A program made the position numbers and the translations under genes. From positions 1-64,000 of the forward strand of contig PNKB01000005.1 in the NCBI GenBank assembly GCA_013997645.1: DNA of 64,000 nucleotides. Direction: 5' to 3'. A model generated the notes under the pieces. That model was not told where the DNA came from. It ran no database searches and worked only from the letters and a program-made list of their open reading frames with translations. The stretch comes from Cyanobacteria bacterium PR.3.49. Lineage in GTDB: Bacteria > Cyanobacteriota > Vampirovibrionia > Obscuribacterales > Obscuribacteraceae. Position 1 is the first letter of the stretch. Each line of letters opens with the position of its first letter. Shown here piece by piece: positions 55,278-63,901 of the stretch.

Positions 55278-57212
55278 TCAGTCGCAGCAGATTGCTTCGA
55301 TTGTTTGGCAAAGGCTTGCCAGCAATGCGGCATCGGTTTCGCCAGTCAAAGTGACGAGAAAGCCTTTGCCAAAGTCGGCCAATATCATGTTGCCGGCCGA
55401 ATTCTTGCACACCATTTGCCGTAATTTTGTATATCCCATAACTTTCATGATCGAGTGAGAGTTCATGTAAGTGACAAGGGCGCAACCCGCCAATAACTCC
55501 ACATCGATGTCGGCGCTGAGCTTATTGCCGATTACGAAGCCGTCATAACCCAAAACCATGTATCCAGCCACGCCTGGTGTGCGGACAATGGGCTCCAGCG
55601 CTGCTTCGAGTTGCATAGCTGCATCCAGAGTAATCACGCGCGCGTGACTCTGACCCTGTCCATTGCTGATACAAGTTTCAATGGACGCAACAGCATCGTC
55701 AGTGAGAAGAAATTTGCCCAGATTGTTTATATTGCCGGGGCTGTTTGTAGCATACCGAATGTCGGCCAGACGCCCGACCGAAGACAGGCACGCATTGACG
55801 TCCGAATCCATCGGACCGGTCTTTTGTTGCAGTTGTTGCAGCGCGTCCTTTTCTTTTATTTCTTGCCAAGGTTTCGTCGGTGGGCTACTCTCCACCTGTT
55901 CGTTAAAGATGAGATTTATCCTTTCCGAAATTTCTTCGATCGGAAGAGCGTTGCGCCTTACAGGGACAATCTTTGGCTCGTAATAAGCATTGGCATCGTT
56001 CGGTAAAACTGGCTCGGTTTGTGAAACTGCTGTTTGTGACGGTGCAACCGGATGCGGTGCCCAGGGAGCTGCAGCTTTGGGAACATCTGACCTTGGTGGA
56101 GGCGCCCAAGCAATTTCAGGAGCAATCGGAGCTGGTGACCAGAAGTCATTTGTTGAGACAGGATTTGAAACCGGGTCTGAAAAAGGCAAAGGTGAGGACC
56201 ATTGGTCTAAAGAGAAAGGCACCAGTGGACCCGTTTCAGTTTGCGTCGGTTTTACAGGTGGTTGCACAGTCGGGTAAGTTCCGGACTTCCATTCGAGTTC
56301 TGCCGTTGAGAAACCGTGCGCCAATGAGTTTTCTTGTTCGGGCGCTTTGAAAGATTGAGCAGGCGGCTTTGTAATCCCCTGTGTGCCAACCGTGAGCACC
56401 ATTGATGTTCCCAGAAGGACTGATGCGGCAGGCTCTTCAGTAGTGATAACGGCTGTTGCAATTTCTGGAGTTACAGCGGCGATTCCGATTATCGATTCTG
56501 AAATTTTTGGATTTTGTACAGGCACGTCAACTCTTTTGAATTCTTGCTCAATTTCTTGTCCGCACTCTGGCGGAACGTCGTGCGCTGTTTCTTCGCGCAA
56601 AGTTTCATGCACCTTTTCACGAATGGCGTCGGCGAGAGTTTTGCCAACATCTTCGACAGGAGAGTTGTTGATGTTTTTGCCCAGTTTCTTCGCCAAACCG
56701 CCCAAAGTTGAATGTGTGCCGGTGATGAATTGATTTGATTGCTCAACTGACTGCAAGCCGTAAGGTGTTTTTTCTTTGTCACTTGCTGTTTGTGGATGTA
56801 AAACGGCAGGATCGATTTTCGGATGGCTCGCACTGGTACCATTTGTGGTGGCGCCGGATTGAGAAAGGCTGTTTGCTGTTGTGCCTATGCTGCCTAAGTT
56901 TCTTGTCAGGCGTGGGTCGCTGCCGGCACTCTTGCGGTTTGCAAAAATGTCCAGCAAAGGATCCCAGAAATTGCCTTTGGCGACCGGAAGACTTTCTATG
57001 ATCTCTCCTGCTAGACGACTGCTGTCGCCCGGTCTGACAAATTCCGGCAGCTCCAAATCTTTAGCAGCGGCCACTACCTGGCTGAGATTGGCGCGAAAGC
57101 TCACGGCGGAGTCATTTACCATAAGCACTCTTCTCAGGCGATTTTCTTCATCATGTGAGAGATTGCCGTCTAATTCGCGCTGAATCAGAAGCCGCGTTTG
57201 CGATTCATTCAT
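55278..57212 (-). CDS. Large protein with C-terminal roadblock/LC7 domain
   Basis: The 644-residue protein begins MNESQTRLLIQRELDGNLSH, which resembles the N-terminal helices of anti-sigma factors but without a zinc-binding His-Cys-Cys. A long Pro/Ser/Thr-rich linker (about 80-420) follows. The C-terminal domain (about 530-644) is a roadblock/LC7 fold: AALEPIVRTPGVAGYMVLGYDG and NMILADFGKGFLVTLTG. Roadblock proteins regulate small GTPases such as MglA. AGGGGG lies 4 bases before the ATG. No GTPase gene is visible here. Confidence 0.72.
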   Translation of the reverse strand: MNESQTRLLIQRELDGNLSHDEENRLRRVLMVNDSAVSFRANLSQVVAAAKDLELPEFVRPGDSSRLAGEIIESLPVAKGNFWDPLLDIFANRKSAGSDPRLTRNLGSIGTTANSLSQSGATTNGTSASHPKIDPAVLHPQTASDKEKTPYGLQSVEQSNQFITGTHSTLGGLAKKLGKNINNSPVEDVGKTLADAIREKVHETLREETAHDVPPECGQEIEQEFKRVDVPVQNPKISESIIGIAAVTPEIATAVITTEEPAASVLLGTSMVLTVGTQGITKPPAQSFKAPEQENSLAHGFSTAELEWKSGTYPTVQPPVKPTQTETGPLVPFSLDQWSSPLPFSDPVSNPVSTNDFWSPAPIAPEIAWAPPPRSDVPKAAAPWAPHPVAPSQTAVSQTEPVLPNDANAYYEPKIVPVRRNALPIEEISERINLIFNEQVESSPPTKPWQEIKEKDALQQLQQKTGPMDSDVNACLSSVGRLADIRYATNSPGNINNLGKFLLTDDAVASIETCISNGQGQSHARVITLDAAMQLEAALEPIVRTPGVAGYMVLGYDGFVIGNKLSADIDVELLAGCALVTYMNSHSIMKVMGYTKLRQMVCKNSAGNMILADFGKGFLVTLTGETDAALLASLCQTIEAICCD

Positions 57213-57748
57213 ACATCCCCCTATTCCACTGCCACGCAAACTCTGCATGCGTAGTGGAAGATAAGCGTGACCACCCGCCCAAAGGCAGATAGACATAAGC
57301 TGTTTGTGTGTTCAGCGATCACAGTCTGTGCAAGAGCGCAACGCACATAGCGCCCGGCACAACCTTTTTTGTTGTAACCCCCGCCGGCAGAAGCACTCCG
57401 CCGGTATTCTTCAATTTGCCGCCAAGACTTCTAAAGAAGCCGCCAGGGCTGAAAACAGCCGTATTTGCATCTTTGCACGCGTTACGGAAAGTTGTCAAGG
57501 GATTGATTGAAGCCCGAAAAGGTCAACTGGGTAGCGTTTTGGGGCTCGGCTCGGGTAACCTTAACTAAATTTCAACCGGCTGCAACGCGGAAACCTCGTC
57601 CAATGCAGGCTTTCGGCAGGTGGATAAAGAAAGCGTCCGCCGGCATCAGATCCGGCGCCGTGCCTGCGTGGAACATATTAGAGGTCTATAATGGTGCCTG
57701 GCGGCTCGTAGGCACTTGCGTGCAGCCATACACTAGAGGTTCAGTATT
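57213..57748. other. Long region without a supported gene
   Basis: These 536 bases lie between two divergent genes. Several short frames exist (for example 57308-57568), but none has a ribosome binding site and recognisable product. TATAAT at 57687-57692 is a possible -10 box for the downstream repeat-protein gene; no good -35 is seen. I cannot find an RNA gene. Confidence 0.35.
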
Positions 57749-58553: not shown

Positions 58554-59588
58554 ATGCAATACGATGCGGTGCTGGTCATCTCCTTCGGCGGACCTGAAGG
58601 AATGGATGATGTGATGCCTTTCTTGCAAAATGTGTTGCGCGGTAAAAATGTCCCTGAAAAGCGCATGAAAGAAGTTGCGCATCATTACGAGCTTTTTGGT
58701 GGCGTGAGCCCGATTAATGGGCAAAATCGGCGCCTGATTTCGGCGCTCAAAGAAGAATTGCGCACACACGACATAAATCTGCCGGTGTATTGGGGAAATC
58801 GTAACTGGCATCCGCTTCTGGCTGACACTCTGAGAAAGATGAAAGAGGCTGGAGTTAAACGGGCTATTGCGTTCGTCACTTCCGCATATGGCAGCTATTC
58901 GGGATGCCGCCAGTATCTGGAAGACATCGAGCGTGCTCAGGCAGATGTAGGTGAAGGGGCTCCTCAGATTGATAAGCTGCGTTTGTTTTACAACCACCCT
59001 AAATTTATCGAGGCGAATGCCGACCATTTGACGGAGTCATTGCGCAGACTGCCTGAAGCTAGGCGCCAGGCGGTTCATGTCATCTTCACAGCGCACAGTA
59101 TTCCCACATCCATGGCCGAGTCGTGCGACTACGAGGCGCAGCTTTTGGAAACGGCGCGACTGGTGGCACGCGCTGCCGGTGTCTCCGATTGGAATTTGGC
59201 TTTCCAGAGTCGAAGCGGACCGCCCACGCAGCCCTGGCTGGAGCCTGACATCCAGGACCACCTTAGGGAAGCAGCACACAGAAAAGTTAAGGACGTAATC
59301 GTGTTGCCGATTGGTTTTGTCTCCGATCACATGGAAATCATTTACGACCTGGATACCGAGGCGGCATCTGCTGCCGGCAAAGCCGGGCTCAACTTTGACC
59401 GCGCTGCTACGGCTGGCACTCATCCTGCTTTTGTTTCGATGATCCGCGAATTGATTCAGGAGCGTCTTGAGAATGCCCACGACCGTTCCTGCCAGGGCGA
59501 GCGTGGCCCGGCACCTGACTTTTGCCAGCCGAACTGCTGTCCTCGTCCGCTTAGACCTCAGACAACAACCTCAACCACATCGGCTTGA
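58554..59588 (+). CDS. hemH: Ferrochelatase (coproporphyrin CpfC-like)
   Basis: The 344-residue protein begins MQYDAVLVISFGGPEGMDD and shows the actinobacterial-type pattern: FGGVSPINGQNR, SAYGSYSGCRQYLED, the catalytic His in FTAHSIP, FQSRSGPPTQPW and LPIGFVSDHMEIIYDLD. Cys in SGC and the C-terminal FCQPNCCPRP fit a [2Fe-2S] cluster as in CpfC enzymes. It inserts ferrous iron into a porphyrin, probably coproporphyrin III, but protoporphyrin cannot be excluded. AAAGGAAAC precedes the ATG. The gene stands apart from the siroheme and cytochrome c genes of the first part. Confidence 0.9.
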   Translation: MQYDAVLVISFGGPEGMDDVMPFLQNVLRGKNVPEKRMKEVAHHYELFGGVSPINGQNRRLISALKEELRTHDINLPVYWGNRNWHPLLADTLRKMKEAGVKRAIAFVTSAYGSYSGCRQYLEDIERAQADVGEGAPQIDKLRLFYNHPKFIEANADHLTESLRRLPEARRQAVHVIFTAHSIPTSMAESCDYEAQLLETARLVARAAGVSDWNLAFQSRSGPPTQPWLEPDIQDHLREAAHRKVKDVIVLPIGFVSDHMEIIYDLDTEAASAAGKAGLNFDRAATAGTHPAFVSMIRELIQERLENAHDRSCQGERGPAPDFCQPNCCPRPLRPQTTTSTTSA

Positions 59589-60540: not shown

Positions 60541-61980
60541 ATGCGTTTCAAACTTACAGCAATCAGCCTGAGTATCTTGGGATTAATCGCTAGTTCAGCT
60601 GTTTTCGCTGAAGGTGAAAATCCGAAGTTCGACAAAGCAAAAGCCACTGCCCAAGCCGCTACCGATGCGGGCGATTTCAAGAGGGCGGAAGCTAATTGGG
60701 TAAAGGCCCTGGCACTTTTAGAAGCGCAGGGTGAAGCTCCGGCCGATGCCAATTTGGAGTTAACGCTCAAGCGACTGGCACAGGCAACCCGTCAGCAAGG
60801 AGAGTATGCGGACAGTCAAACCTACTTGCAGCGCGCGATTACAACTGCCGGCAAGATCAATTTAAACGATCCTGATTTGCAAATCGAATCGAATGAGCTG
60901 TGCAAATATTGCCGGGTAATCGATCCCAATAAGCTCGGCAAAGATGCCGCCAAGTTGATTATCGACAATAAGGCCACCATCGTTGTCGTTAAAGATAAGG
61001 ACGAAGGAGCTTTCATAGTTACTGTTTCTGTTCCGAACAGAATCGAGAATACGACCGGTGACGACAAAGTCGATCAAATTGCCATGGAAAAGTCCGTTAC
61101 GCTCAATTTGACGGAAGGTACCGATGGTACTGTTCAGGCGTCTAACATCAAAGGATTCAAAATTCACGTTGTTGAAAAGAAAATGTGGGTCAATCTGCTT
61201 GGAGTGAATTTCGGCAAGGCTAAAGAAACAGGAGAGCGCGATGCCGCCATCACTGCCGGAAAAATGGGAGTGACAAAGACAGTTACTCAATCCATAAAGG
61301 CCGATTTGTTCCAGCCCATTGCTGCATTTGTCGAAGAGACCAAGCTTTTCGGAACACCAACCGACATTGCTACAAGTGGTTCGGGATCGACAACGAGTTC
61401 AACGCCCTCTGCGTCTTCTGTCACATCCACTATATCGACCACAACATCTACAGGTGTAACTTCGGGATCTACAGCTCCAGTCTCCACGACAACTTCCACA
61501 ACGACCAGTGCCGCAGACCTGTCCGTACCGGTAAGCAATGTCTCGTCAACGACAATAACAACCACGTCTTCGTCAGCGACCGTATCTACACCACCGACAT
61601 CAACTGCCCCCGTCACATCGGGCTCAACGACTGCTACTGAGTCAGTTTCTTCTTCTTCTTCTTCTTCTTCTTCTTCTTCTTCTTCCAGCTCAAGCGGTTC
61701 CAGCGAATCAGGAAGCAACACTGGAAGCAGCAAGAGACCAGACATTGAAACGACCACAGTAATTGATTTCACCAATAACTCCAAAAATAAGAAGGAAGAA
61801 CCGGCCCAGGTCGAAGAGCCCAAGCAACAGAGCAGCTCGTCCGTTCAAAAGGAAGATAGTGGCTCGACATCTGCTTCCCCATCTGTCAAGAAACGTCATC
61901 ATGATGATGACGACGATGACGATGATGATGACGATGACAAAGACCGAAACAAAAAGAAGCGCGACCGTGACGATGACTAA
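60541..61980 (+). CDS. Secreted protein with TPR-like N-terminus and Ser/Thr/Asp-rich tail
   Basis: The 479-residue protein has a signal peptide (about 1-23, ending VFA), a TPR-like helical region (about 30-105, KRAEANWVKALALLEAQGEA and SQTYLQRAITTAG), a middle domain (about 115-280) and then a very long Ser/Thr-rich region. This has a run of 15 or more Ser coded partly by TTC-type repeats (61647-61685) and ends in a KKRHHDD-to-poly-Asp tail and basic residues. The Ser/Thr tail is likely disordered or a cell-wall or surface spacer. Function is unknown. Confidence 0.72.
   Translation: MRFKLTAISLSILGLIASSAVFAEGENPKFDKAKATAQAATDAGDFKRAEANWVKALALLEAQGEAPADANLELTLKRLAQATRQQGEYADSQTYLQRAITTAGKINLNDPDLQIESNELCKYCRVIDPNKLGKDAAKLIIDNKATIVVVKDKDEGAFIVTVSVPNRIENTTGDDKVDQIAMEKSVTLNLTEGTDGTVQASNIKGFKIHVVEKKMWVNLLGVNFGKAKETGERDAAITAGKMGVTKTVTQSIKADLFQPIAAFVEETKLFGTPTDIATSGSGSTTSSTPSASSVTSTISTTTSTGVTSGSTAPVSTTTSTTTSAADLSVPVSNVSSTTITTTSSSATVSTPPTSTAPVTSGSTTATESVSSSSSSSSSSSSSSSSGSSESGSNTGSSKRPDIETTTVIDFTNNSKNKKEEPAQVEEPKQQSSSSVQKEDSGSTSASPSVKKRHHDDDDDDDDDDDDKDRNKKKRDRDDD
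61647..61685 (+). repeat. (TTC)13 microsatellite inside a Ser-rich coding region
   Basis: Thirteen perfect TTC copies encode a Ser run (read in the TCT phase). Such a tract is prone to slippage, which would change Ser number in steps of one without frame loss if whole triplets change. Confidence 0.9.
61903..61938 (+). repeat. Poly-Asp codon tract (GAT/GAC)12
   Basis: Twelve consecutive Asp codons, mixed GAT and GAC, near the end of the Ser-rich secreted protein, preceded by two His codons. Charge alternates with basic residues at both sides. Confidence 0.9.
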
Positions 61981-62698: not shown

Positions 62699-63901
62699 AT
62701 GGCACGTCGAGTTGTGAAAAACATTGCGTTATTGGCGATACTAGCCGCCTCGGCAGCAGGAATGCAGGCGTTCGCAAGTGAGCCAACAGATGCTCCTGCT
62801 TTGCGATCTAAAGTGTTCAAGATTCCTGATATGAGTAAGTCCCGCATCGAACTGCCTGTAAAAGGACTTATCGGCGACCTGCGCATGCCTGTAGCTTCCG
62901 ATTCAAGAGCAAAGGGAATTGAAATTTCTAAAGCACCGGCATCGCGCAATTCTGCAAGGTCGCTGGATTCCCAAAAACCAGCTCTCAAGCCGGCATCGAG
63001 CCAGAAGGTGGAGCCGGGAAAAGTGCGTTGGCATAAGGCAATTCAGACAGCGATGGATGCTTCGGCCCAATCCGGAAAGCCGGTTCTACTCTTTCAGATG
63101 ATGGGTCGCCTGGACGATCGCTTCTGCTGAACGAATGCGCGCTTGGCGAGAACCGTGCTGTTCTCGGATGAAGATGTTGCCAGACAGATAAATGAAAAGT
63201 TCGAGCCTGTTTGGGTAAGCGTCAGAGATGTCCCAACAGTCACCATTGACTTTGGCAAGGGTCATAAGCTGACAAGAACGCTTCATGGCAATGTGGCTAC
63301 ATATGTGCTCACCGCCGATGGTACCATCATCGATGTTTTGCCCGGTTTGTATGAATCTGCCCAATATTTGGCGCAGTTGAATCAGCTCTGGTGGGTACAT
63401 CACTATGCTGCCAGGACCCGTGTGCCTTCGGCGTTTCTCGCCGACTATCACGATGAGCAAGCAAGAGCTATCCAAACCTCAGGCAAGGCGAAAGTTGTGA
63501 AGCCATTCGCTGACATGTCAAAAATGTCAATCGAGATCAGCACCAAGACAATTTTGCGAACGACAGGCAGTTCTTATCCATCAGAAGTTTTACGCGTCGC
63601 CAAATCGGCAGAGATGGTCGATCGACCCGATTTTTCGAAACCGGGGCAACTCAAGCATTGGCGCAAATTGTACGAAGACACGGACATTAATGAGAACGAA
63701 AGACGTGGACAGATTCATATGATTTTGTCCAAGCGTCCAAATGCCAAGCCTGGCGATGTGACGAAAGAAATCTATCGTGATGTTCTTCATGCCGATATCG
63801 ACGATCCGTATCTTGGACTGCAGGAAACACTCTTTAGAGACTATCCGTTCCAAGAGGACCGCCCCGTGTCTTCCGGCAAAACTTCTCAGAAACATGGCTA
63901 G
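62699..63901 (+). CDS. Candidate selenoprotein, thioredoxin-like, with in-frame TGA (Sec144)
   Basis: Two plus-strand frames, ending at 63130 (TGA) and running from 63131 to 63901, are in the same phase. Read through the TGA they give a 400-residue protein with a signal or anchor segment (about 6-26), a Pro/Lys-rich linker and a thioredoxin-like part: SGKPVLLFQMMGRLDDRFC, then the TGA codon, then TNARLARTVLFSDEDVA. The Cys-Sec pair sits where redox Cys pairs sit in thioredoxin-fold proteins. A separate start (TTG at 63143) has no ribosome binding site. A stem-loop at SECIS distance follows the TGA. Selenocysteine is inferred, not proved. Confidence 0.72.
63147..63166 (+). promoter_or_regulatory. 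Candidate bacterial SECIS stem-loop
   Basis: A perfect 7-bp stem (CGAGAAC with GTTCTCG) encloses the loop CGTGCT. The loop begins 24 bases after the TGA at 63128-63130, inside the 16-37 base range described for bacterial SECIS elements, and has a G in its second position. SelB would bind such a hairpin to direct Sec insertion. Confidence 0.6.

Follow-up and report, generated by a model that had tools for sequence, protein, structure and literature searches.

The window, that is, the whole stretch of 64,000 nucleotides analysed here, comes from a genome of the Melainabacteria, relatives of cyanobacteria that do not photosynthesise, and was found to carry a gene that very probably encodes an exported thioredoxin-fold selenoprotein, in which SelB would drive the insertion of Sec at an in-frame UGA and a Cys143-Sec144 pair would form the redox centre. 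A Sec-containing product had been proposed for this locus in an earlier sequence-only reading, and the proposal is supported computationally by homologues which conserve and span the TGA, the exchange of Sec with Cys in aligned forms, a conserved bSECIS hairpin under constraint, the Sec machinery genes selB, selC, and selD, and thioredoxin-like similarity, each of which could be demonstrated by sequence comparison.

Gene layout and the in-frame UGA

A single frame runs from the ATG at 62699 to the TAG at 63899-63901, and its sole interruption is the TGA at 63128-63130, which stands right after a Cys codon (TGC) exactly as first described. Counting of residues revealed that Cys143 is the only Cys and Sec144 the only Sec of the protein. 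The encoded protein begins with a signal or anchor segment, in which Ala26 was invariant across seven relatives; a variable linker follows, then the thioredoxin-like domain (roughly residues 105-240) and a C-terminal region with a DDPYLGL motif. Gene order upstream of the selenoprotein gene was kept in congeners, and part of this conserved order is a secreted-looking protein (60541-61980) with a long low-complexity tail of Ser/Thr and poly-Asp. TGA serves as the ordinary stop of the conserved neighbour genes at 58554-59585 and 55281-57296; therefore, UGA is not a general sense codon here. The features of the locus are listed in Table 1.

Table 1. Features of the selenoprotein locus (positions in the window)
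Feature	Position	Strand	Basis
Selenoprotein gene, 400 residues with UGA as Sec	62699..63901	+	Frame read and full-length homologues
Predicted signal peptide or membrane anchor, MARRVVKNIALLAILAASAAGMQAFA	62699..62776	+	Hydrophobic N-terminus after RR, by eye
Thioredoxin-like domain, modelled alone	62990..63430	+	AlphaFold2, Foldseek, weak Thioredoxin_7 matches
TGC TGA, Cys143-Sec144	63125..63130	+	Sequence and homologue alignment
Bacterial SECIS-like hairpin, CGAGAAC-CGUGCU-GUUCUCG	63147..63166	+	Synonymous-site constraint, bSECIS rules

Homologues across the UGA

The full protein could be aligned with homologues from six GTDB species, labelled Candidatus Melainabacteria or Obscuribacterales, at 40-77% identity, and all six carried the TGA at the same codon. 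When 50 genomes of the same taxonomic family were surveyed as well, the total came to 18 distinct homologues of the CUT type, all from Obscuribacterales-type Melainabacteria, and the TGA was present in every one of them within the motif FCU[T/A/V]NA. The frames were intact on both sides of the TGA, in agreement with the conservation on either side and in the same phase that had been claimed from the letters alone, and conservation peaked across the TGA itself (FCUTNARLART).

Homologues with Cys at the TGA position, for which the sequence-only reading had proposed to search, were recovered by a phylum-wide profile search. Twenty-three intact homologues from other classes of the phylum were free of stops, carried the motif LSCANSR, and placed a Cys exactly in the TGA column; one additional genome outside these 23 contained a degraded copy (L094). 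Judged by kinship, the hosts of the 23 Cys forms would be photosynthetic cyanobacteria. The C-terminal DP[W/Y]LGL motif was retained in 20 of the 23. The catalytic Cys of these forms is preceded by Ser, and Thr occupies that place in the related TUS-type selenoproteins described below.

SECIS-like hairpin

The 7-bp hairpin with a six-base loop at a suitable distance, as reported earlier, was exact: the stem pairs CGAGAAC (63147-63153) with GUUCUCG (63160-63166), and the loop CGUGCU (63154-63159) begins 23 nt downstream of the UGA. The published bSECIS constraints are a loop of 3-9 nt, a stem of 4-16 bp, a G in the first two loop positions, a distance of 16-37 nt from the UGA, and a minimum free energy of -7.5 kcal/mol or lower (PMC13188914). 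The hairpin agreed with these rules, with a 6-nt loop, a 7-bp stem, a 23-nt distance, and -7.8 kcal/mol for the 20-nt hairpin alone. The + strand of the window has 1,241 TGA triplets, and only one of them was followed by a perfect 7-bp/6-nt hairpin at a loop distance of 17-37. The fold energy of the hairpin stretch was no better than that of shuffled sequence (z = 0.13), and the case for the hairpin rests on conservation, not on fold energy.

Synonymous variation was strongly reduced at the hairpin codons. In the 18 Sec sequences, synonymous differences at codons +6 to +11 reached only 0.22 of the expected number, the lowest ratio among 85-98 six-codon windows (median 0.94), and where the stem meets the loop, the codons for Thr and Val did not vary synonymously at all. 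The same codons gave a ratio of 0.97 in the cyanobacterial Cys homologues, which indicates that the constraint tracks Sec and not the protein sequence. When the CUT and TUS sequences were aligned together, 98.2% of the stem cells paired, and the stem pair 40-49 was A-U in CUT and G-C in TUS. Most of the covariation separates CUT from TUS instead of being scattered over the tree, and in these alignments it may amount to a single change that sets the two clades apart. When the source genome was searched with a covariance model, only this hairpin and two TUS hairpins were returned besides weaker, chance-like matches, which leaves room for further selenoproteins with SECIS elements of another kind; an Rfam scan of the locus gave chance matches only.

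Selenocysteine machinery

The genes selB, selC, and selD, which the sequence-only reading had named along with selA as a check, were all present in the genome, whereas selA was not found in the assembly, which is 82.8% complete and fragmented into 322 contigs. The selB and selD matches were above their cut-offs; selC scored 69 bits, also above cut-off, and ARAGORN likewise called a tRNA-SeC. SelA could be detected in three of seven congeners and in 35 of the 50 family genomes, the four SelA-less congeners all being 64-84% complete.

In one congener (G006), selA adjoins two genes which we take, from recognition of their sequences, to be an rRNA methyltransferase gene and an EF-Tu gene. Counterparts of both flanking genes were sought in the source assembly, where only distant homologues (28-35% identical) were detected. 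EF-Tu is essential, yet it lacks a close counterpart here; hence, that region is missing from the source assembly, and by synteny selA would be expected to sit within it. The absence of selA is therefore likely a gap in an incomplete assembly, and it was rejected as a refutation of the Sec reading, since the EF-Tu and methyltransferase genes that flank selA in the congener are missing as well. A SelA match was absent from five of the eight genomes of the source genus (g1), more than completeness would predict if losses were independent; a common hard-to-assemble region around selA would explain this number.

Co-occurrence with SelA was evaluated in those genomes of the family with a completeness of 85% or more. 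CUT or TUS members were present in 24 of the 29 such genomes with SelA and in none of the six without (Fisher p = 2.8e-4, uncorrected for kinship).

Domain structure and family placement

Because AlphaFold2 gave a poor model of the full-length protein (pLDDT 39), the domain was modelled alone. The domain model reached moderate confidence (mean pLDDT 61, pTM 0.59), with pLDDT below 50 for the residues around the Cys-Sec pair, and its elements run from a helix and a strand through the Cys-Sec loop to a helix, strands, and a last helix. Foldseek analysis retrieved mostly thioredoxin-fold proteins among its best matches, the best being 3f9u (E 1.9e-4), and further matches included the DsbH-domain protein 7tkv and DsbD C-terminal domains, while a sequence search of the PDB gave nothing significant. 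In profile comparisons, Thioredoxin_7 (PF13899) weakly matched 25 of 39 family members (best E 0.00097) and Thioredox_DsbH / DUF255 (PF03190) 10 of 39, below the curated cut-offs. The fold search and the weak profile matches, taken with a model of moderate confidence, point to a thioredoxin fold and are consistent with the thioredoxin-like segment noticed earlier around the TGA. A classical CxxC or UxxC active site was not found; in contrast to Thioredoxin_7 and Thioredox_DsbH proteins, this protein lacks CxxC and carries a single Cys and a single Sec in the motif CUTNA.

No Pfam or NCBIfam model reached its cut-off for the protein; the sequence-only reading had recognised no named family with exactly its layout. 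The nearest models were those of VPGUxxT (NCBIfam NF041383 / NF041382), which likewise describe thioredoxin-like proteins with Sec or Cys. The match was weak and confined to the N-terminal part of the domain: type 2 matched 15 of 39 members (best E 8.8e-05) and type 1 eight of 39 (best E 3.8e-05), and the present protein scored 17-19 bits against cut-offs of 275 and 350. It has RFCUTNAR, with a Cys before the Sec, where the VPGUxxT family has VPGU, and its C-terminal half was unmatched. With no model at cut-off, it was assigned to a new family that would be distant kin of VPGUxxT and not to VPGUxxT itself; from these sequence comparisons, we regard it as representing a new, unnamed thioredoxin-like selenoprotein family of a known kind.

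A tree of 39 domains resolved three groups: CUT (Sec with a vicinal Cys), the cyanobacterial Cys forms, and TUS (Sec without a vicinal Cys). SH-aLRT support in this quick tree, which carried a long-branch warning, was 74% for CUT as one side of a branch and 96 and 100% for the other two groups, TUS being the clade at 100%. The unnamed cyanobacterial homologues (LSCANSRFFR) share the domain and the DP[W/Y]LGL motif but differ in having Cys for Sec, Ser for the preceding Cys, and in lacking a constrained hairpin. The TUS paralogues resemble CUT in their TGA-encoded Sec, their related domain, and a SECIS that matches in shape and loop, but lack both the vicinal Cys and DPYLGL.

Proposed mechanism and alternative explanations

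In the proposed mechanism, SelB-GTP carrying Sec-tRNA(Sec) would bind the hairpin and insert Sec at the UGA, and the N-terminal segment would target the product to the cell envelope. In the envelope, the vicinal residues Cys143 and Sec144, whose predicted position is immediately ahead of the active-site helix of the thioredoxin fold, would serve as redox centre. The likeliest chemistry is an attack of the Sec144 selenolate on a disulfide or peroxide; resolution would then come from the thiol of Cys143, by way of a Cys-Sec selenenylsulfide, or from that of a partner outside the protein. Export, the redox chemistry, and the part played by Cys143 are what we infer from the features above. A resolving role of Cys143 cannot be general, as the preceding residue is Ser in the Cys forms and Thr in TUS. 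We would give an even chance to the more specific idea of a new family of exported thioredoxin-fold enzymes in which the adjacent Cys-Sec selenenylsulfide is the entire redox centre, with a Cys form in other cyanobacterial classes.

Three explanations would remove Sec from the protein. A sequencing error or pseudogene mutation might be suspected in an assembly so fragmented and incomplete, but this explanation is already refuted by the recurrence of the TGA in 18 distinct sequences of many different genomes, in which the frame is intact on either side, and we consider it almost inconceivable. The same near-zero probability is given to the presence of two genes, the first coding for a short secreted peptide that stops at the TGA and the second, downstream, for a protein whose translation begins at the TTG at 63143. 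Such a split would fit the finding that other genes of the window do end in TGA; against it, conservation is highest across the TGA, the cyanobacterial homologues form one continuous frame with Cys at this place, and the split would halve a thioredoxin-like domain. Because conservation runs through the TGA, it no longer matters whether a second gene would have its own ribosome binding site. Reading of the UGA as another amino acid, by general readthrough or a code change, could appeal to the selA gene not seen in the assembly; the presence of tRNA-Sec, SelB, and SelD, the RNA-level constraint on the hairpin, the exchange with Cys in homologues, and the normal use of UGA as a stop speak against it, and it is very improbable, if marginally less so than the preceding two.

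A true selenoprotein with a non-redox role, in which Cys143-Sec144 binds a metal or metalloid, is unlikely but deserves more weight than any of these. Vicinal CU motifs occur in the metal- or mercury-related selenoproteins HgcA, MbdU, and SaoL (PMC13188914), and the present protein has no second redox Cys. On the other hand, the model suggests a thioredoxin-like fold in which the pair precedes the predicted active-site helix, which would favour redox chemistry, and the vicinal Cys is not retained in the Cys-form or TUS-form relatives, which also argues against metal binding.

Predicted selenoproteins in Melainabacteria and paralogous loci

A survey published in 2006 reported no Sec decoding among Cyanobacteria (PMC1794560), and no description of Melainabacteria selenoproteins was found in the open-access literature searched. 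A 2026 review mentions a selenoprotein screen of more than 44,000 groundwater metagenome genomes (PMC13188914), so that such a family may already be tabulated there. The clean split between Sec forms in Melainabacteria and Cys forms in other cyanobacterial classes offers a direct test of the benefit of selenium. Selenoprotein genes of this sort are usually annotated as truncated; thus, public genomes probably carry wrong annotations for the CUT gene and its TUS paralogues.

Two more selenoprotein genes, both of the TUS type, were located in the source genome at C155:5903-6277 (L010) and C3:67218-67718 (L011). They carry the motifs TUSAGNS and TUSAANS, respectively, along with a SECIS hairpin of the type seen in the CUT gene, TUS being a second Sec clade found family-wide. 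Two further loci from SelA-positive genomes differed at the Sec position. L058:673-1605 (G040:C1:534305-535204) is free of stops and has Glu at this position with the preceding Cys kept, and by its sequence is probably a Sec-lost paralogue. L059 (G017:C80:33687-34184) is of the TUS type, with Cys for Sec and a decayed hairpin, and is nested among Sec forms; it looks like a Sec-to-Cys conversion. The family appears to have expanded locally in G018 and G050, two genomes of the same taxonomic family (genus g12), with seven matching stretches in each and three CUT-type loci in G018. One copy of this set (L060) contains a second TGA near its C-terminus.
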